A stretch of DNA of 64,000 nucleotides from Nocardioides lianchengensis (GTDB lineage: Bacteria; Actinomycetota; Actinomycetes; Propionibacteriales; Nocardioidaceae), in assembly GCF_900101465.1 (NCBI RefSeq), contig NZ_FMZM01000015.1, forward strand, positions 1 through 64,000, in the 5' to 3' direction. A program made the position numbers and the translations under genes. Below, piece by piece: positions 34,103 through 45,661 of this stretch (positions within the stretch are counted from its first letter, which is position 1; every line of letters starts with the position of its first letter). Under the pieces are notes generated by a model that had not been told where the DNA came from, made no database searches, and was given only the letters and a program-made list of their open reading frames with translations.

Positions 34103-37100
34103 GTGTCGATGAGCAGTACGTCGCAACGTCCGTCCCGCCTGCGCAGACGAGGGCCACTGGCCGTCGTCCTCGCGGGCGCGCTCGCCCTGGGTGTCGCCAC
34201 CGGGGTCACGGCCGCCTCCGCGGTCCCCGCCGGCGACGAGCCGGGGGTCACCATGCGGGCCTTCCAGCTCGGCCAGCCCATCTCGGACCTCTGCACGCTC
34301 AAGTCCGGTCAGACGCCGAACGTCGACCTGCTCAAGCCGACCATCGACTGGGACGCGCCCGACGACTTCGGCGGGCTGCAGGACAACTACCTGGTGCAGG
34401 TGCTCGCGAACCTGAGCATCGACACCGCTGGTACGTACCAGTTCCGGCTGACCAGCGACGACGGCTCCGACCTGTTCATCGGCGACCAGCTCGTCATCGA
34501 CCACGACGGCCTGCACGGCCCGACCGCCAAGGACGGCAGCGTCACCCTGACCGCCGGCGTCCACCCGCTGCGCGTCAACTACTTCGAGGGCACCAACGGC
34601 GAGCGGCTGACCCTGCAGTGGCAGAAGCCGGGCCAGACCACCTTCTCCGTGGTCCCCACCTCGGTGCTCAGCACCGAGGCCGGCGTGACCCGGGTGACCG
34701 CCCCCGGCTTCAAGCAGTGCGAGGGCCAGTCCGACTCCGCCGGCGACGGCCTCCAGCTCGACGCGGTCAACCCGGCGTACGACCTGGTCGACCTGCGCCC
34801 GGCGGGCTTCGAGCCGCAGGTCTCCGGCCTGGAGTGGGACGGCGACGACCTGCTCGTCCTCACCTGGGGCGGCAACGGCAACGACCAGGGCAACGTCTCC
34901 CTCGGCGAGCTCTGGCGCCTGAAGGGCGTGAAGACCGCCACCAGCCCGGCCGGCGTCACCCGCACCAAGATCGCCGGCGCGCTGAAGGAGCCGATGGGCG
35001 TCAAGGTCGTCGACGGCGACGTCTACGTCTCCGAGAAGCACCAGCTCAGCAAGCTGGTCGACGCCGGCGACGACGGCGTCTTCGAGACCAAGGAGACGGT
35101 CGCGACCTGGCCGTTCGACGGCAACTTCCACGAGTTCGCGTTCGGGATGCTCTACGAGGGCGGCAAGTTCCACCTGAACCTGTCGGTCTCGATCAACCTC
35201 GGCGGCGCGACCACCGTCCCGCAGGGCTCCCACGACCGCGGCACCCACATCACGGTCGACAAGGAGACCGGCGAGATCGAGTACGTCGCCGGCGGCCTGC
35301 GCACCCCGCACGGCATGGGCCGAGGGCCCGACGGCGAGATCCTGGTGACCGACAACCAGGGCGGCTGGCTGCCGGCCTCCAAGCTGGTCGAGATCAAGCC
35401 CGGCCGCTTCTTCAACCACTTCACCACCGGCCCCGGCGGCACCAAGGGCCGCTTCGACGAGGAGCCGGTGACCAAGCCGATCCTGTGGATGCCGCAGAAC
35501 GAGATCGCCAACTCCCCGAGCCAGCCGGTGCTGGTCGAGGAGGGCCCGTACGCCGGCCAGCTGCTGATCGGCGACGTCACGTACGGCGGTCTGCAGCGCG
35601 CCTACCTGGACAAGGTCGACGGCGAGTACCAGGGCGCGCTGTTCCGGATGAGCCAGGGCCTCGAGGCCGGCTCGAGCCGGGTGCTGCGCGACGAGGACGG
35701 CACGCTCTACGTCGGCGGCATCGGCGCCGGCGGCAACTGGGGCCAGACCGGCAAGCTCCGCTTCGGCCTGCAGAAGCTCGAGCTGAACGACACGGTCCCC
35801 TTCGACATGGAGTCGATGAAGGTCGTCGAGGGCGGCTTCGACGTCACGTACACCAAGCCGCTGTCCCCGGCGACGCTCGCCGGCCTGGCGAGCAAGTACC
35901 AGCTCGACCAGTGGCGCTACAAGGCCACCGCCCAGTACGGCGGCCCGAAGCTCGACGAGGAGACCCTCGAGGTCACCAGCGCCGTCGCCTCGCCGGACGG
36001 CCGCACCGTCCGGATCCAGGTCGACGGGATGAAGCCCGACCGGGTCGTGCACCTGCGCTCGCCGCGACCGTTCTCCGCCACCTCCGGCGAGACCCTGTGG
36101 AGCACCGAGGCCTGGTACACGCTCAACTCCTACCCGGGGTACGTCGAGCCGGAGCCGGAGCCCGCTCCCTTCGGGCTCTACGAGCTGGAGGACGGTGAGC
36201 TCACCGGCAGCGCCAACATCCAGAACGAGCACGCGGGCTTCAGCGGCAGCGGCTTCGTCGCGGGCATGGGCGACGTGGGCGCCGGCTCGACCGTCCAGGT
36301 CGTCGTCGACGAGGCGGGCACCTACGACCTCAAGCTCGGCTACGCCAACGGGCCCAACCCGTTCGAGGGCACCAAGAAGCTCAGCGTGTTCGTGAACGAC
36401 CAGCGCACCCAGCTCTCCCTGCCGTCCACCGGCGGCTGGAAGACCTGGGGCAGCATCACGCGTCAGATCACCCTCCCGGCCGGACCGAGCACGATCCGGC
36501 TCGAGAAGGTGACCGGCGACGACGGGCACGTGAACCTCGACTACGTCCAGGTTCTCCGACCGACCTCCACGCGGTACGAGGCGGAGTCGGCGGCCCGCTC
36601 GGGCGGTGCCAACCTCCAGAACGAGCACGCCGGCTTCAGCGGCACGGGCTACGTCGGCGGTCTCGAGACGGGGGGTGCCTCGGTGAGCTTCACCGTGGAC
36701 GCCGACGCGGCCGGGGACCACGACCTGACGCTCGGCTACGCCAACGGTCCGCACCCGGCCCCGAACCTGACCAAGAAGCTCGACCTCTCGGTCAACGGCG
36801 GCCCGGCGCGGTCGGTGTCGCTGGCCAACACCGGCGCGTGGAACGCATGGCGCGCCTCGGTCGAGAGGGTGGCCCTCCAGGAGGGCAGCAACACCGTCAC
36901 CTACACCGTGCCGGCCGCCAACGGCCAGACCGACGGTCGCGTCAACGTCGACTACGTCGACGTCGCCGAGAGCGCCCCGGTCTGCGACCCGGAGGGGGTC
37001 TCGTCCGACGACGAGTTCGAGGGCGACGCGCTCGACACCTGCCGCTGGAGCACGGTCCTCAACCCCGCCCCCGGCGGGCTCGAGGTCCGCGACGGCGAGC

Positions 37101-38818
37101 TGCGGCTCTCCGCGCAGAGCGGCGACATCACGGGCGGGATCTTCAGCGCCCGCAACGTCGTCCTGCAGCCCGCGCCGTCCGACGGCACCTGGGCGGCGAC
37201 CACCCAGCTGTCGCTCACCGGGACCAAGGAGTACCTGCAGGGCGGGCTGATCGCCCACACCAGCACGGACAACTGGGCCAAGGTCGTCGCCATGCGCACC
37301 CCGCAGAGCACCTGGGTCCTCGAGTTCGGGCGGCGCATCGACGGGCAGATGGTCTTCTCCAACAGCCCGGCGCTCCCCGGCGCTCCGAAGGACCTGCAGC
37401 TGCAGATGGTCTCGACCGGCACCACCATCCAGGCGAAGTACTCCCTCGACCAGGGAACGAGCTGGCAGTCCATGGGGGCGGGCTACCCGTCCACCGGGCT
37501 GGTCGACCCGAAGGTCGGCGTGGCGGCGTACAACGGCTCGGGCTCCCAGATCGGGCGCTTCGAGAAGTTCACGATCACCGAGCCGGTCGTCGAGCCCGAC
37601 ACCTGTGAGGCGACCACGGCCGACCCCGGCTACCGGATGCTGTACGACGGCACCGCGGCCAGCCTCGAGGACTGGAACATGGCCGGCCCCGGGTTCTTCA
37701 CCCGCGAGGCGGACTGCACGCTCAAGACCCACGGCGGTCTGGGCCTGCTCTGGCACCAGGACGCGCTGGAGGGCGACTACTCCCTCCAGCTGGACTGGAA
37801 GCTCACGGCCGACCACAACGGCGGCGTGTTCGTCGGGTTCCCGAACCCGGGCACCGACCCGTGGGTCGCGGTCAACCAGGGCTACGAGATCCAGATCGAC
37901 GCCACGGACGACGCCGACAGCACCACGGGCGCCGTCTACAACTTCCAGTCCGCGGACCTGCCGAAGCGGGACGCTGCGCTGAACCCGCAGGGTGCGTGGA
38001 ACCACTACGAGATCCGGGTGGAGGGCAAGCGGATCCGCATCTACCTCAACGAGGTGCTGGTCAACGACTTCACCAGCGCCGACCCGGCCCGGCTGGACTG
38101 GCCGTCGTACGTGGGCCTGCAGAACCACGGCAACGGCGAGAACGTCCTCTACCGCGACGTGCAGGTCAAGGAGCTGGCCGACCCGGAGAACGTCGCCCCC
38201 ACGGTGACGGTCACCCCGACGCCGGCGACGGTGGAGGTCGGTCGGACCACGAAGGTCGAGGTGGCGGTCGACTCGCCCGCCGAGGAGACGCCCACCGGCG
38301 AGGTCGTCCTGACCGTCGGCGGGACGGCGCTCCCCGCGGCCACCCTCGTCGACGGGAAGGCCAGCATCACGGTCGGGCCGTTCGACCGGACCGGACCGGT
38401 CGCGCTCTCCGCGTCGTACGACGGCGACGCCGCCCACGACCCGGGCGAGGGCAGCGGGTCGCTGACCGTCACGAAGAAGCCGGTGGTGACCCCGCCGCCC
38501 CCGCCGCCGGTCGTGAAGCCGAAGCTGGCGACGGTCGGCACCAAGGTCGACGCCGACAAGGCTCGTCGCAAGGCGGCGGTCACGCTGCGCTGCGTCCAGG
38601 GCGCCTGCCGGGGCACGGTCTCGCTCCGGCTGGCCAGCGGGAAGCAGCTCGGCACGGGCAAGGTCACCCTGAAGGCGGGGGCCCGCGGCAAGGTGCGGCT
38701 CAGCCTCACCAAGCTGGCCCGCAAGCAGCTGAAGGGCAAGGCCGCGGTCCGGGCCGTGCTCGTGGTCCGGTTTGCCGACGGCAGCACCCAGCGGCTGACC
38801 GTCCGGCTCACCCGCTGA
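34103..38818 (+). CDS. Exported 1571-aa multidomain carbohydrate protein: PA14, six-bladed propeller, two CBM35/6-like, DUF1080
   Basis: The GTG start has GGAGG 6 nt upstream. Order of parts: signal peptide (about 1-40); PA14-like lectin domain (50-200, YQFRLTSDDGSDLFIGDQLVIDH); a PQQ-sugar-dehydrogenase-like six-bladed propeller (215-560, GLRTPHGMGRGPDGEILVTDN); two related CBM35/6-like domains (690-818 and 822-955), both with NIQNEHAGFSG/NLQNEHAGFSG; a concanavalin-like domain similar to DUF1349 (965-1160); and a DUF1080/3-keto-disaccharide-hydrolase-like domain (1175-1358, NGGVFVGFPNPG). An Ig-like domain (1365-1455), a proline run and a basic C-terminal domain follow. It probably binds and modifies polysaccharide outside the cell. 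The propeller-DUF1080 pair suggests handling of sugars through 3-keto intermediates, but I infer this. Confidence 0.88.
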   Translation: MSMSSTSQRPSRLRRRGPLAVVLAGALALGVATGVTAASAVPAGDEPGVTMRAFQLGQPISDLCTLKSGQTPNVDLLKPTIDWDAPDDFGGLQDNYLVQVLANLSIDTAGTYQFRLTSDDGSDLFIGDQLVIDHDGLHGPTAKDGSVTLTAGVHPLRVNYFEGTNGERLTLQWQKPGQTTFSVVPTSVLSTEAGVTRVTAPGFKQCEGQSDSAGDGLQLDAVNPAYDLVDLRPAGFEPQVSGLEWDGDDLLVLTWGGNGNDQGNVSLGELWRLKGVKTATSPAGVTRTKIAGALKEPMGVKVVDGDVYVSEKHQLSKLVDAGDDGVFETKETVATWPFDGNFHEFAFGMLYEGGKFHLNLSVSINLGGATTVPQGSHDRGTHITVDKETGEIEYVAGGLRTPHGMGRGPDGEILVTDNQGGWLPASKLVEIKPGRFFNHFTTGPGGTKGRFDEEPVTKPILWMPQNEIANSPSQPVLVEEGPYAGQLLIGDVTYGGLQRAYLDKVDGEYQGALFRMSQGLEAGSSRVLRDEDGTLYVGGIGAGGNWGQTGKLRFGLQKLELNDTVPFDMESMKVVEGGFDVTYTKPLSPATLAGLASKYQLDQWRYKATAQYGGPKLDEETLEVTSAVASPDGRTVRIQVDGMKPDRVVHLRSPRPFSATSGETLWSTEAWYTLNSYPGYVEPEPEPAPFGLYELEDGELTGSANIQNEHAGFSGSGFVAGMGDVGAGSTVQVVVDEAGTYDLKLGYANGPNPFEGTKKLSVFVNDQRTQLSLPSTGGWKTWGSITRQITLPAGPSTIRLEKVTGDDGHVNLDYVQVLRPTSTRYEAESAARSGGANLQNEHAGFSGTGYVGGLETGGASVSFTVDADAAGDHDLTLGYANGPHPAPNLTKKLDLSVNGGPARSVSLANTGAWNAWRASVERVALQEGSNTVTYTVPAANGQTDGRVNVDYVDVAESAPVCDPEGVSSDDEFEGDALDTCRWSTVLNPAPGGLEVRDGELRLSAQSGDITGGIFSARNVVLQPAPSDGTWAATTQLSLTGTKEYLQGGLIAHTSTDNWAKVVAMRTPQSTWVLEFGRRIDGQMVFSNSPALPGAPKDLQLQMVSTGTTIQAKYSLDQGTSWQSMGAGYPSTGLVDPKVGVAAYNGSGSQIGRFEKFTITEPVVEPDTCEATTADPGYRMLYDGTAASLEDWNMAGPGFFTREADCTLKTHGGLGLLWHQDALEGDYSLQLDWKLTADHNGGVFVGFPNPGTDPWVAVNQGYEIQIDATDDADSTTGAVYNFQSADLPKRDAALNPQGAWNHYEIRVEGKRIRIYLNEVLVNDFTSADPARLDWPSYVGLQNHGNGENVLYRDVQVKELADPENVAPTVTVTPTPATVEVGRTTKVEVAVDSPAEETPTGEVVLTVGGTALPAATLVDGKASITVGPFDRTGPVALSASYDGDAAHDPGEGSGSLTVTKKPVVTPPPPPPVVKPKLATVGTKVDADKARRKAAVTLRCVQGACRGTVSLRLASGKQLGTGKVTLKAGARGKVRLSLTKLARKQLKGKAAVRAVLVVRFADGSTQRLTVRLTR

Positions 38819-39057: not shown

Positions 39058-39624
39058 TCAGTCCGTCCGGCGCAGGCCGCGGTCCACGAAGTCGACCAGC
39101 CAGGCGAAGCTCTCGTCGACGTCGGTGTCCAGCTGGAACCCGCCGGCCGCCTCGAGGACGGCGAAGCCGTGGGTCAGGCTGCGGAGCAGCCGGAGCGCGT
39201 GGATGGTGTCGGTCGGGTCGACCGGGTAGCCCTCCAGCACGGCCGCGAGCGAGGTCAGGACGCGCTTCCCGGCCGCGTCCATCGGGTCGTCCGGGCCCTG
39301 GGGCTCGAGGCGGACCGTGGCGGCGTACCGCCCGGGGTGCTCGAGGACGTAGTGCCGGATCGTCCGGGCCGCCGCCTCCAGGGCGTCCCGGCCGGCGCGG
39401 CCCTGCAGGGCGTCGCGGAGGTCGTCCCCCACCTCGGTGAGGGCCAGGACGGCGATCCGGCGGACCAGGTCGGCCTGGCCGGCGACGTGCTTGTAGAGCG
39501 AGGGCGGCCGGACACCGAGGCGCTCGGCGAGCAGGCCCATGGTGACGTTCGGGAGCCCGACCTCGTCGGCGAGACCGGCCGCGGCGGAGACCACGACCGC
39601 CGGGTCGAGGCCGGCCCTAGGCAC
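39058..39624 (-). CDS. TetR family regulator of the adjacent hydrolase
   Basis: The 188-residue product has a TetR DNA-binding domain, VTMGLLAERLGVRPPSLYKHVAGQADLVRRIA, and a C-terminal domain of the TetR_C_33/WHG type (RHYVLEHPGRYAATV, RLLRSLTHGFAVLEAAGGFQL). It lies downstream of and overlaps by 8 bp the alpha/beta hydrolase gene, so the two are one transcript. The array of four GCTAA/TTAGC half-sites just ahead of the hydrolase start is its most likely operator, giving a simple autoregulated two-gene unit. Confidence 0.9.
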   Translation of the reverse strand: MPRAGLDPAVVVSAAAGLADEVGLPNVTMGLLAERLGVRPPSLYKHVAGQADLVRRIAVLALTEVGDDLRDALQGRAGRDALEAAARTIRHYVLEHPGRYAATVRLEPQGPDDPMDAAGKRVLTSLAAVLEGYPVDPTDTIHALRLLRSLTHGFAVLEAAGGFQLDTDVDESFAWLVDFVDRGLRRTD

Positions 39625-40450: not shown

Positions 40451-40465
40451 GTCGCTCTCCTCATG

Positions 40466-40500
40466 GCTAATGTTGTTAGCCCAAAGCTAACGACGTTAGC
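40466..40500. promoter_or_regulatory. TetR operator array: four half-sites at 10-bp steps
   Basis: GCTAA (40466), TTAGC (40476), GCTAA (40486) and TTAGC (40496) alternate with 5-bp spacers, each half-site starting exactly 10 bp after the previous one. This yields two identical palindromes GCTAA-N5-TTAGC with centres 20 bp apart. It lies immediately upstream of the ribosome binding site of the hydrolase/TetR transcript. Confidence 0.8.
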
Positions 40501-40579
40501 CAGTCGGTGTCAACTCCGGGACGTGACGACGCCGCCCCCCGGTGGGCGGGGAGCGGCGTCGTCGTTCTGAGGGGTGCGC

Positions 40580-43500
40580 TCAGCGCACCCGGACCGACAC
40601 CTTCCTCGCGGTCGCGCCGGTGAGGACGCGGGCCGCGGAGCCGGTGGGGTCGTAGGTGACGGCGAGCCGGTAGCTCCCCTTCCTCCGGGCGGGCAGCCGC
40701 ACGGTCACGACGCCCCGATCGGCGCGGTCGAGGGTGACCCGCAGGACCTTGCCGGCGTAGCGCAGCGTGATCCGGCCGGTCGCCCGGTCGATCGCGCTAC
40801 TGCTCACCCGGACCCGGACCTTCGGGCGGGTCCCCGGACGCACCCGCTTCGGCGTGACGCTGACTGCGACGGACGGGACCGCCTTGCGCACCACGGCCGT
40901 GGCGGCCGAGGTGGCCGTCCCGGCCAGGTAGCCGGCCTTGGTCGCGGTCACCCGCACCCGCAGCCGGTGCCCGACGTCCGCCGCCCCCAGCAGGTACGAC
41001 GCCGAGGTCGCCCCCGGGACCACGCTGCCGTCCCGCAGCCAGCGGTACGACGCCGTCGTCCCCGCCACCGACCAGGTGCCTGCGGTCGCGACCAGCCGGC
41101 CACCGGCGACGGCGCTGCCGCGCACGGTCGGCGCCGAGGTCGAGGTGATCGCGTCCGGCTCGGCGACCGGCTCCACGCCGGCCACCTCGCCGAGCAGGTC
41201 GACCGCGTCCGCGGCCTTCCCCGACCAGAGCAGGTGCTCCGCGTCGGCGATCCCGCGCTGGGCCTGGGCCCCGGCGGTGCCGGCGACGACCGCCGCCTGG
41301 GCCACGTCCCGGGCCAGCGACCCCACGACCGCCGCCTGCGGCAGCACGGCGTCGTCCCGACCGCCGAGCTCGGCGGCCAGGTCGGTCAGCAGCGGCCAGG
41401 CGCGGTCTGCGTCGCCGATCGCCCCGGCCGTCCAGACCGGCGCGTCGAGCAGCGCCTGCGCCGCGCTCGCGGCGGTCCCGGTCAGCGACGCGCGCAGCGT
41501 CGTCAGCCGGGCCCGCGGACCGTCGGTGCGCAGGCCCCACCCGTAGGCGTAGGCCGGGTCGTACGACGCGTCGCCCACGTTGACCGGGACCTGGTCGGCC
41601 GAGGCCGGCCAGGTCATCGGCAGCTGGCCGGTGAACGGCTCGTCGCCGAGCAGGACGTCGGCCACGCCGGCGCCCTCGCTGCCCGGCAGGAACGACGCCA
41701 CCACGGCGTCGGCCGAGGCCGCCGCACCGGTCAGCACCTGCGGCCGTCCGGAGACCACCACGACGGTGCACTCCATCGCGCCGCAGACGGTCTCGATCGC
41801 AGCCCGGTCGGCGTTCGACAGCGAGAGCGACTTGCCGTTGTTGCCGACGTCGCCCTGGCCCTCGGCGTACGGCGTCTCGCCGACCACGACCAGGCCCGCG
41901 TCGTACCCGGTCGTCGGCTCGGCGGCCGTCTTCGAGTAGGTGACGTCGAGGTCCGGCGCGGACTGCTGCAGGCCCTCGAGGATGGTCGTCCCGGTGGTCA
42001 TGCCCTTCCCGGAGCCGCCCTGCCAGGAGATGCTCCAGCCGCCCATCTGGTTGCCCAGGTCGTCGGCGTTGGAGCCGGCGACGTAGAGCTTGCCGGTCCT
42101 GGCGAGCGGCAGCGCGCCGGTGTTGCGGAGCAGCACCTGCGACTCGGCCGCGGCCTTCCGGGCGATCGCCCGGTGCGCCTCGCCGCCGAACGCCTCGCGC
42201 TGCGAGGCGTCGGTGAACGGCTGCTCGAAGAGCCCGAGGTCGAACTTCTCGGTCAGGATCCGGCTGACGGCGTCGTCGACCCGGGCACCGGTGATGTCGC
42301 CGGCGTCGACCCCGGCGACCACGGCGTTGATGAAGGCCCCGAAGTTGTACGGCGCCATCGCCATGTCGAGACCGGAGTTGACCGACCGCTCCACCTTGTC
42401 GGCGTAGGTGCCGCCCGGCAGCTTGTCGATGCCCTCCCAGTCGCTGATGAGGAACCCGTCGTACCCGAGCTCGTCCTTGAGCAGGTCGGTGTTGAGCACG
42501 GTGTTCTCGTGCATCCGCACCACCGGGCCGCCGTCGACCGAGACGCCGGAGTACGACGGCATGATCGTGCCCGCGCCCGCCTCGATGGCCGGCTCGTACG
42601 GCGTGACGTACAGCTCGCGGAACTGCTCGAGCGAGGTCACGTTCGTGACGCCCTGGTCGATCGGGTAGCCGTTGCCGACCTTGGTCGGGTCGTACGACGT
42701 GCCGCCGTCACCGGCCCAGTGCTTGGCCGAGGCCAGCACCTCGTCGGCGGCGGTGATGTCGGTCGGGTCGTCGCCCTGGAGGCCGACGACGGCCGACCGG
42801 GAGAACGCCCGCACGAGCGCGGGGTCCTCGCCGAGCGACTCGTAGGTGCGGCCCCAGCGCTCGTCGCGGCTGACGCACAGGCAGGGCGAGAAGGCCCAGT
42901 TGACGCCGGTGGTGCGGGTCTCCGAGGCAGTGGCCCGGGCGATCCGCTCCACCAGGGCGGGGTCGCGGGTCGCGCCCAGCCCGATGTTGTGCGGGAAGAT
43001 CGTCGCGTCCTTGACGTTGCTGTGCCCGTGCACGGCGTCCGCGCCGTACACCAGCGGCACCTGCAGGGGCGTCGAGAGGGCCTGGCGCTGGAAGCCGTCG
43101 ATCATGGCGGCCCAGGCCTCGGGCGTGTTGGCCTTCGGGGTCGACCCGCCGCCGGACAGCACCGAGCCGAGGCCCAGCGCGGCGATCTGGTCGGGGCTGG
43201 TCAGCCCGAGCCGCTCGGCCTGGGCCATCTGGCCCGCCTTCTCCTGGATGCTCATCCGGCCCAGCAGGTCGGCGACGCGCTGCGGGGTGGGCAGCGCCGC
43301 GTCGAGGTAGGGCAGGTCGTGGGCGTTGAGGACGACCCGGGTCCGGGTCTCGGGCAGGGTCACCCCCGAGGCGGTGAGCTCGATCGGTACGTCGAGCGCC
43401 TCCGACCCGCCGGCGCGGGCCTGGGTCTCGACCTGCAGAGGCTGCGTCGCTCCGGACTCGGTGCCGACCGGGAAGGTCAGCGTGCCCGAGTCCGCGGTGT

Positions 43501-45661
43501 AGTCGGTCCCCGCGACGGCCGTGCCGCCGCCCGTGGCCCAGTCGACCTCGACGGCCTCGGTGGTCGGCTCGCCCGTGGTGGTCGTCAGTGCGACGTCGAC
43601 GGTGGCGGTCTGGCCCGCGTCGACGAGGGTGACGTCCTGGGTCGGGGCGACCGACACGGTGCCGGCGGTGGCCGGCGTGCCGTAGAGCTCGACGTCGTCG
43701 AGGGCCCAGCGGACCGGCGTCGGCGTGCCGACGGCGAAGGTGACCGCGAAGCCCCAGGCGCTGGTCAGGTCCAGGGTGCCGTTCTTGGTCTCGGCGTTGC
43801 CGGGCTGGTAGGCGCTCGGGGTGAACGACGAGAACGGCAGCTCGACCAGCTTCCAGCGGCTGGTGGAGGAGCCCCAGTTGTCCTTGAACGTCGCGCGCCA
43901 CAGCTCGGAGTGCTCGCCGTCGGGGCCGCCGTCCTTGACCTCGACGGGGATGTCGGCGCCCGCCGTGGGCGAGGCCGGGTTGCTGGCCTGCGAGGCGTAC
44001 CACCAGAAGCGGATGCCGCGGAAGCTGCTCCAGTCCTGGGAGTCGACCAGGTTCTTGGAGAACCCGCCGTAGCTGCCGGTCGGGATCTCGTAGGTCCCGG
44101 ACAGCACGTCGTTGTCGACGACGGCGCCGCGCTCCTGCGGCTCCTGGCCGATGGTGACGGTCGTGTCCTCGCTGCCCTTCCAGATGAAGTAGCCGACCGG
44201 GGCGTCGGTGGAGATCTGCACCGGCGTCTCGTAGTCGTCGACCAGGACCGCCCGCTCGTAGAGCGCGAAGTCGTCGAAGCGCCACGCGCCCTGGCCGAGC
44301 CCGGTCAGGGTGACGGCGAAGCCGGTCGAGGCGTTCGGCGTGAACCGGGCGTCGGAGGCGTGGTTGCCCTTCAGGCGGAGGTCGGTGAAGAGCACCTTCA
44401 CCCGGCGCCAGCCGGTCGAGTCGTCGGTGACGTCCTGGTCGAACATCCGGCCGTCGCTCTTCAGCTCGTAGCTCAGCCGCTTGCCCGAGCCGGTGCCGAG
44501 GAACCAGAAGCTGAAGCCGTCGTACGCGCTCCAGTCCGTGGCGGGGGTGTCGTTCGTGAAGCCGAACCAGTCGCCGGCGGCCGGCGTACCGCCCACGGTG
44601 GCGACGAGCGCGTCGTTGCCGGCAGGGGACCCGGGGACGTCGCCGTCGGGGGCGGTGGTGAGGACGGGCTTCACCGCGTCCGTGATGCCCCAGGTGGTGA
44701 AGCCGGCGGGGACGCCGTCCTCGAAGTCGTGGACCACGTTCGCGCTGCCCGTCTCGGGCAGAGCGCCGGTCGGCGTGATGGTCACCGTCGTGGACGTGCG
44801 AGCACCGGGGTCGATGCCCGCGCTGGGCTCGCTGAGTGCGAGGTCGACGGTCCGCCGCGGCGCGAGTGCGCCCCGGCTGAAGGTCTCGACCTCGACCGCC
44901 TCCTCGGTGTCCCCGGGCGCGAACGTCACGACCTCGTCGACGGCCGTGTAGTCGGTGCCGGCGACGCCGGTCCCGCCGCCGGTGCGGACCCGGACGGTCT
45001 GCTCGGTCTCGGACGGGTTGGACAGGCGCACCGGGACGGTGGCGGGCTCTCCCGCCGCCACCGTCGTCGGGGCTCCGAGGCCGACCAGCGGGCGGGCGAA
45101 GGTGCCGCGCACCGCGAGGGTGTAGAGCGAGTAGCCGTAGTAGTGCAGCGTCGGGGCCTCCCAGGTGGCGGCAGCCCGCTTCTTCATGGCGATGCGCACG
45201 TACCGGGCGGTCGTGGGGGTGTCGAGGGTGATGACGTCGGCACCGCCGTCCCCGGTGGTCGTCGAGTACGCCGTGGTCCAGCTGGCCGGGTCCTCGGGGT
45301 CCTCGGTCGCGAGCTGGACGTCGTAGGCGACGGCGTACGACGCCTCCCAGGCCAGGTCGACCGAGGAGACCGTGGCCGCACGGCCCAGGTCGGAGGTCAG
45401 GTCGGCCAGGAAGACCGCGGCGCCGTCGTCCGGGCCGTTGCCGCTGGCCCAGCGGGTGGTGGGGTTGCCGTCGATGGCGTTGGCCGCCGGGAAGGTGCCG
45501 TCCCGGTCGTCCTGGGACGCGGAGGCGGTGGCCGTGCCCAGCTGGGCCAGGTCGGGATCGGCCGCGGAGGCCGGCGCGGAGGGCAGCGCTGCGACGAGCG
45601 CCGCGGTGGTGACGAGGGCGAGCGACGCCGCAGTCGCTCGCCGTCGGGTGTGGAGGTTCAT
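40580..45661 (-). CDS. Exported 1693-aa GH3 beta-glycosidase with several carbohydrate-binding modules
   Basis: After a signal peptide (about 1-34) come an F5/8-type C (CBM32-like) domain (38-185), a Calx-beta domain (190-295), two CBM11-like carbohydrate-binding domains (308-470 and 475-665) and a second Calx-beta domain (668-785). The GH3 catalytic unit runs from about 790 to 1390: RMSIQEKAGQM, VYGADAVHGHSNV, KHWAGDGGT, and LISDWEG with nucleophile Asp1074. It ends with two surface-type beta domains (1500-1693). The catalytic part resembles glucan 1,3/1,4-beta-glucosidases. It would trim beta-glucans at the cell surface or outside. It is divergent from a ROK regulator, its probable controller. 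Confidence 0.92.
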   Translation of the reverse strand: MNLHTRRRATAASLALVTTAALVAALPSAPASAADPDLAQLGTATASASQDDRDGTFPAANAIDGNPTTRWASGNGPDDGAAVFLADLTSDLGRAATVSSVDLAWEASYAVAYDVQLATEDPEDPASWTTAYSTTTGDGGADVITLDTPTTARYVRIAMKKRAAATWEAPTLHYYGYSLYTLAVRGTFARPLVGLGAPTTVAAGEPATVPVRLSNPSETEQTVRVRTGGGTGVAGTDYTAVDEVVTFAPGDTEEAVEVETFSRGALAPRRTVDLALSEPSAGIDPGARTSTTVTITPTGALPETGSANVVHDFEDGVPAGFTTWGITDAVKPVLTTAPDGDVPGSPAGNDALVATVGGTPAAGDWFGFTNDTPATDWSAYDGFSFWFLGTGSGKRLSYELKSDGRMFDQDVTDDSTGWRRVKVLFTDLRLKGNHASDARFTPNASTGFAVTLTGLGQGAWRFDDFALYERAVLVDDYETPVQISTDAPVGYFIWKGSEDTTVTIGQEPQERGAVVDNDVLSGTYEIPTGSYGGFSKNLVDSQDWSSFRGIRFWWYASQASNPASPTAGADIPVEVKDGGPDGEHSELWRATFKDNWGSSTSRWKLVELPFSSFTPSAYQPGNAETKNGTLDLTSAWGFAVTFAVGTPTPVRWALDDVELYGTPATAGTVSVAPTQDVTLVDAGQTATVDVALTTTTGEPTTEAVEVDWATGGGTAVAGTDYTADSGTLTFPVGTESGATQPLQVETQARAGGSEALDVPIELTASGVTLPETRTRVVLNAHDLPYLDAALPTPQRVADLLGRMSIQEKAGQMAQAERLGLTSPDQIAALGLGSVLSGGGSTPKANTPEAWAAMIDGFQRQALSTPLQVPLVYGADAVHGHSNVKDATIFPHNIGLGATRDPALVERIARATASETRTTGVNWAFSPCLCVSRDERWGRTYESLGEDPALVRAFSRSAVVGLQGDDPTDITAADEVLASAKHWAGDGGTSYDPTKVGNGYPIDQGVTNVTSLEQFRELYVTPYEPAIEAGAGTIMPSYSGVSVDGGPVVRMHENTVLNTDLLKDELGYDGFLISDWEGIDKLPGGTYADKVERSVNSGLDMAMAPYNFGAFINAVVAGVDAGDITGARVDDAVSRILTEKFDLGLFEQPFTDASQREAFGGEAHRAIARKAAAESQVLLRNTGALPLARTGKLYVAGSNADDLGNQMGGWSISWQGGSGKGMTTGTTILEGLQQSAPDLDVTYSKTAAEPTTGYDAGLVVVGETPYAEGQGDVGNNGKSLSLSNADRAAIETVCGAMECTVVVVSGRPQVLTGAAASADAVVASFLPGSEGAGVADVLLGDEPFTGQLPMTWPASADQVPVNVGDASYDPAYAYGWGLRTDGPRARLTTLRASLTGTAASAAQALLDAPVWTAGAIGDADRAWPLLTDLAAELGGRDDAVLPQAAVVGSLARDVAQAAVVAGTAGAQAQRGIADAEHLLWSGKAADAVDLLGEVAGVEPVAEPDAITSTSAPTVRGSAVAGGRLVATAGTWSVAGTTASYRWLRDGSVVPGATSASYLLGAADVGHRLRVRVTATKAGYLAGTATSAATAVVRKAVPSVAVSVTPKRVRPGTRPKVRVRVSSSAIDRATGRITLRYAGKVLRVTLDRADRGVVTVRLPARRKGSYRLAVTYDPTGSAARVLTGATARKVSVRVR

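Follow-up and report, generated by a model that had tools for sequence, protein, structure and literature searches.

The window, i.e. the whole stretch of 64,000 nucleotides that was analysed, contains a real and conserved pair of operators in front of an alpha/beta hydrolase gene and a TetR-family regulator gene. It is a good small regulatory unit and a fairly ordinary gene switch with a neat geometric rule. The array very probably serves to control a hydrolase-TetR operon that regulates itself; TetR dimers would bind the two palindromes and repress the operon until a ligand releases them. Comparison with related loci supports the pair as predicted operators, their spacing, their register with the putative promoter and their link to the local TetR, while we infer repression and ligand release at the array.

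The half-sites GCTAA (40466), TTAGC (40476), GCTAA (40486) and TTAGC (40496), which had been reported in a preliminary description, are all exact, and positions 40466-40500 read GCTAA-N5-TTAGC-N5-GCTAA-N5-TTAGC. With up to 3 mismatches allowed, this 35-bp pattern had a single match in the window and none in 100 dinucleotide shuffles. The 15-bp palindrome GCTAAN5TTAGC occurs in just these two copies in the whole genome (5,293,897 bp), where the reversed-pattern control gave no match. A chance origin of the array was ruled out by the shuffles and by the genome-wide uniqueness of the palindrome. The description of the two operators as identical holds for their half-sites; their inner N5 are different (TGTTG and CGACG on the plus strand). 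Similarly, the exact 10-bp steps are found in the window, but between the two sites of relatives the spacing is 20 or 21 bp and once 19 bp. The features of the region are listed in Table 1.

Table 1. Features of the operator array and the hydrolase-TetR operon
Feature	Position in window	Strand	Remarks and basis
Predicted distal operator GCTAACGTCGTTAGC	40486..40500	-	Within the -35/-10 spacer, overlaps the -10; sequence and homolog conservation
Predicted proximal operator GCTAACAACATTAGC	40466..40480	-	Covers the expected transcription start; sequence and homolog conservation
Inner TTAGC-N5-GCTAA, opposite polarity	40476..40490	.	Read as -10 and start region, not as operator
Predicted -35 TTGACA	40508..40513	-	Sequence; position conserved in homologs
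Predicted -10 TAGCTT	40484..40489	-	18 bp after the -35; TAnnnT in register in homologs
Expected transcription start (A)	40476..40477	-	About 7-8 nt after the -10; inferred from promoter position
Shine-Dalgarno GAGGAG of the hydrolase gene	40457..40462	-	Sequence
Alpha/beta hydrolase, 277 aa	39617..40450	-	First gene of the operon; ORF; Abhydrolase_6, E 4.1e-25
TetR-family regulator, 188 aa, TetR_N + TetR_C_33	39058..39624	-	ORF, Pfam, model pLDDT 93.6
Lys45 codon, recognition helix	39490..39492	-	Alignments; tally over 170 loci

The TetR gene is located downstream of the hydrolase gene and their reading frames overlap by 8 bp. The hydrolase start codon lies 15 bp downstream of the end of the array, which was therefore taken as the 5' control region for both genes and not for the TetR gene alone. 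Both domains of the regulator scored above the curated cut-offs, TetR_N (PF00440) with 27.4 bits (cut-off 24) and TetR_C_33 (PF13305) with 94.8 bits (cut-off 26.8). Its structure model has the all-helical TetR fold (pLDDT 93.6), and the best PDB match, 1zk8, a regulator from Bacillus cereus, is its closest solved relative (E 5.6e-27, TM 0.87, 34% identity). The operon is flanked by two multi-domain carbohydrate enzymes of very large size, a PA14/CBM35/3-keto-disaccharide hydrolase protein of 1571 aa on one side (34103-38818) and a GH3/CBM11 protein of 1693 aa on the other (40580-45661). A strong GC-rich inverted repeat (ACGACGCCGC ... GCGGCGTCGT, approximately 40527-40562) lies in the gap that separates the hydrolase promoter from the end of the GH3 gene. 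It may be a terminator; the consensus scan listed no terminators.

Sequence comparison indicated that the palindromes are conserved at the hydrolase-TetR operon, near the gene of the predicted dimer itself. Among 294 genomes of the family, 112 have TetR relatives, with a best match of at least 58% identity in 19 of these. The 112 genomes contain 126 TetR matches, and 90 of these 126 loci were read. A genome scan added 80 named loci (the best 80 of at least 153 relatives), which makes 170 loci read in all. An independent search with the four-half-site pattern (up to 3 mismatches) detected it in 16 of the 294 family genomes, while the reversed pattern matched in one (G168). In 14 of the 16 the pattern lies beside the orthologous TetR; near the pattern in G119 and G201, no TetR or hydrolase homolog was present. 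Two sites were found in 18 of the 19 orthologs, and the remaining one (G190) has one clear site and one with 3 mismatches.

The hydrolase gene lies upstream on the same strand at 105 loci, and both sites, with no more than 2 mismatches per site, are present at 91 of them (90 by the standard scan, plus L078, whose sites are further upstream). The spacing in these 91 pairs is 20 bp in 72 cases, 21 bp in 18 and 19 bp in one, with no other value, and no site with up to 2 mismatches occurred in 32,850 upstream control positions. Fourteen loci are without a full pair. Contig ends truncate L077 and L152, and in seven others the second site, 20-21 bp away, has 3 mismatches. A clear second site is absent from L024, L025, L119 and L121 despite an intact upstream region. 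In L090 no site was found.

Several of these loci have peculiarities of their own. In L119 and L121, both from Microbacterium, the GCTAA-type sites are offset by 6 bp and overlap, instead of being two turns apart; in the TetR tree these loci are on a long branch. In L024 and L025 the hydrolase ATG seems to be located close to or right at the predicted start of transcription (GGCTATG), so that some single-site relatives may have leaderless transcripts. Locus L057 is on a contig (WNZI01000001.1) with the title Vibrio cholerae strain 35D; its hydrolase-TetR operon is the actinobacterial one and clusters with Rathayibacter in the tree, and this assembly is probably mislabelled or contaminated.

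When the loci were aligned on the distal site, the consensus was roughly TTGACA-n6-GCTAAYGNCRTTAGC-TTTTA-GCTAAYNNNRTTAGCC. TAGCTT, which is made up of the right arm of the distal operator and the first spacer bases, usually follows TTGACA at a distance of 17 bp. At 86 of 90 unique loci, a TTGACA-like -35 was in register with a TAnnnT -10, versus 0 of 990 upstream control positions; L016 and L083, which have the same operator region, were counted once. Of these 86 putative promoters, 82 are in the main register and 4 have both elements shifted together. Joint shifts of 5-6 bp relative to the operators were seen in L009, L010, L012 and L013, where the -10 is still between the two sites. The consensus scan of the window called no promoter, because TAGCTT matches TATAAT at 3 of 6 positions and the scan requires 4.

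A trace of the pair is also found in a sister clade of TetRs (about 41-52% identity), which has no hydrolase and mostly carries CCTAAN5TTAGG near its own start. Among 42 sister loci with a CCTAA-N5-TTAGG site, 34 have a second, weaker site (matching at 6 or more of 10 positions) exactly 21 bp away, 24 at +21 and 10 at -21 without overlap, while partners at other offsets were found at 0.27 loci on average and at 3 at most. With ties allowed, the best partner was at +21 or -21 in 35 of the 42 loci. When the flanks were shuffled 200 times, this number averaged 2.5 and never exceeded 7, and among three control motifs one reached 10. Part of the downstream partner may be a Shine-Dalgarno sequence. 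Such mimicry was rejected as the sole source of the partners, since CCTAA, the left half, shows the +21 peak by itself as well and since the partner is upstream of the main site in 10 sister loci. Judged from these partners, the two-turn pair looks older than the split between the two clades.

At 10.5 bp per turn, 20 bp corresponds to 1.9 turns and 21 bp to 2.0 turns, hence sites 20-21 bp apart would lie on the same face of the helix. Two in-phase dimers are the most natural reading of this spacing, and the spacing rule together with the phase-keeping weak partners of the sister clade makes it reasonably likely that the two dimers bind cooperatively. It is a possible, though doubtful, alternative that the two operators are independent, each dimer binding singly so that repression is deepened at the spacer and at the start, with the spacing set by promoter geometry. 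Since the distal site has bases in common with the -10 and the proximal one lies over the expected start, the position of the promoter could fix both, and the available text on QdoR of Bacillus subtilis reports stronger repression with two operators (PMC8481877). However, only spacings of 19-21 bp were found among the 91 pairs, and the start site alone would not fix the right arm of the proximal operator, which is strongly conserved. Moreover, the weak partners of the sister clade, located exactly 21 bp to one or the other side, would be of little use without the help of the strong site. Cooperative binding of two dimers, one of the possibilities raised in the preliminary description, remains our preferred reading, and the spacing could be partly set by the promoter.

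The assignment of the operators to the outer polarity is based on the gaps between half-sites. The gap from GCTAA to TTAGC is 5 in all 100 close exact cases of the homolog loci; 15 cases with a gap of 11-12 come from a spacer TTTTA which, joined to GCTAA, creates an overlapping TTAGC. The gap from TTAGC to GCTAA, by contrast, is 4, 5 or 6 and follows the site spacing of 19, 20 or 21 bp, and single-site homologs have the outer polarity only; hence there are two operators, both of outer polarity. The palindromes could not be told apart by dyad symmetry beyond the half-sites. A third palindrome of opposite polarity had been put forward as a site for which TetR might compete, and its half-sites are indeed also 10 bp apart, both in the window and at the 20-bp loci. 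This competition is very unlikely in view of its variable gap, of the outer polarity of homologs with one site, and of the -10 element, which accounts for its middle. The predicted -10 element and the expected start region coincide with this inner palindrome, which is thus explained without a third operator.

The recognition helix of the regulator provides a further link to the sites. Residue 45 (SLY-K-HV) is at the end of this helix, which spans residues 40-43 in the structure model. In the GCTAA clade, 105 of 106 proteins have Lys at this position; the remaining one, L128, has Arg and likewise a perfect GCTAA pair. CCTAA-type sites go with Ala, Ser or Thr. In a tally of the best site over the 170 loci, 93 with Lys have G..C ends and 42 with Ala, Ser or Thr have C..G ends, and the two groups do not cross. 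Of the remaining loci, 5 have sites with mixed ends and 30 are without a site by the best-site criterion. In L162 the second site is G..C-ended although residue 45 is Ser. Because a single split in the tree separates the Lys and Ala/Ser/Thr groups, the association is a single event, and on the alignments residue 45 tracks the outer base of the predicted operator across one evolutionary split only.

In the genome of the window, each operator type (GCTAA and CCTAA) is found at one locus, beside its own TetR, and from such counts the regulator looks local in its action. The proposal that these are operators of the TetR at 39058-39624 was borne out to the extent that the pair follows the TetR/hydrolase operon in relatives and the outer base follows the recognition-helix residue. 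TetR-family regulators can act at a distance and binding of the local TetR is predicted, so that another regulator for these sites, with the local TetR binding elsewhere, is conceivable, but this is hardly credible given that the sites track the local TetR from genome to genome, that exact sites number 19 at the locus versus 3 elsewhere in 18 ortholog genomes (that of the window excluded), and that the outer base tracks residue 45 of the local protein.

Two TetR subclasses are described in the available text of PMC4150764 and PMC6449355, with one dimer on 15-17 bp or with a longer operator that takes up two dimers. The repeats bound by QacR dimers overlap and are contacted from opposite sides (PMC4150764, PMC6449355), CprB dimers, of the cooperative subclass, occupy opposite sides of a 22-bp site without contact (PMC4150764), and MAB_4384 is described with a single 27-bp palindrome (PMC5895659). 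The array is similar to QacR and CprB in having two TetR-family dimers per operator region, predicted here and cooperative there, except that their dimers are on opposite faces whereas the 15-bp palindromes of the array are two separate sites, in phase and with a spacing of 20-21 bp. Overlapping sites bound from opposite faces were thus not found here, the sites being separate and about two turns apart, hence on the same face. QdoR/LmrA of B. subtilis is also a TetR-family system with two operators in one promoter, its ligand and enzyme being different from those here, and for the qdoR promoter itself one operator only is described (PMC8481877, available text). A tandem arrangement of this kind, two separate operators in one promoter, was recognized by sequence only, at 91 of the 105 loci. 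Tn10 TetR, among the nearest solved structures to the local TetR, controls an efflux pump in place of a hydrolase, and the local protein has the TetR_C_33 ligand domain. The operator pair of Tn10 TetR, tetO1/tetO2, is spaced much tighter than that of the array. According to the available text, Tn10 TetR binds a 15-bp palindrome per dimer (PMC4150764), as is predicted for the array. In the open-access literature there was no description of the hydrolase-TetR operon, of its tandem-operator system or of the Lys45 code; subscription journals may differ.

According to the proposed mechanism, dimers of the TetR encoded at 39058-39624 would bind the two 15-bp palindromes GCTAAYNNNRTTAGC, whose centres are two helical turns apart. 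The distal operator would sit between the -35 (TTGACA) and the -10 (TAGCTT), contributing part of the -10, and the proximal operator would cover the expected start site. When the ligand is absent, the two dimers, located on one face and probably assisting one another, would deny RNA polymerase access to the start site and the -35/-10 spacer. The ligand, likely the hydrolase substrate or a relative of it, would release TetR, and hydrolase and repressor would then be produced until the ligand is gone.

Taken together, there is about an even chance that an Actinomycetota subfamily of TetR_C_33 regulators has a binding mode apart from both described subclasses. Two dimers would be neighbours on one face of the helix at a distance of exactly two turns, with cooperativity strong enough for one operator to decay if the phase is kept. 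An operator arm would double as the -10, and Lys versus Ala, Ser or Thr at position 45 would set the outer base. The array is a testable switch common to many actinobacteria, with a predicted operator and promoter, a two-turn spacing rule and a one-residue specificity code, and the operator could act as a reporter for finding the hydrolase substrate and the inducer.
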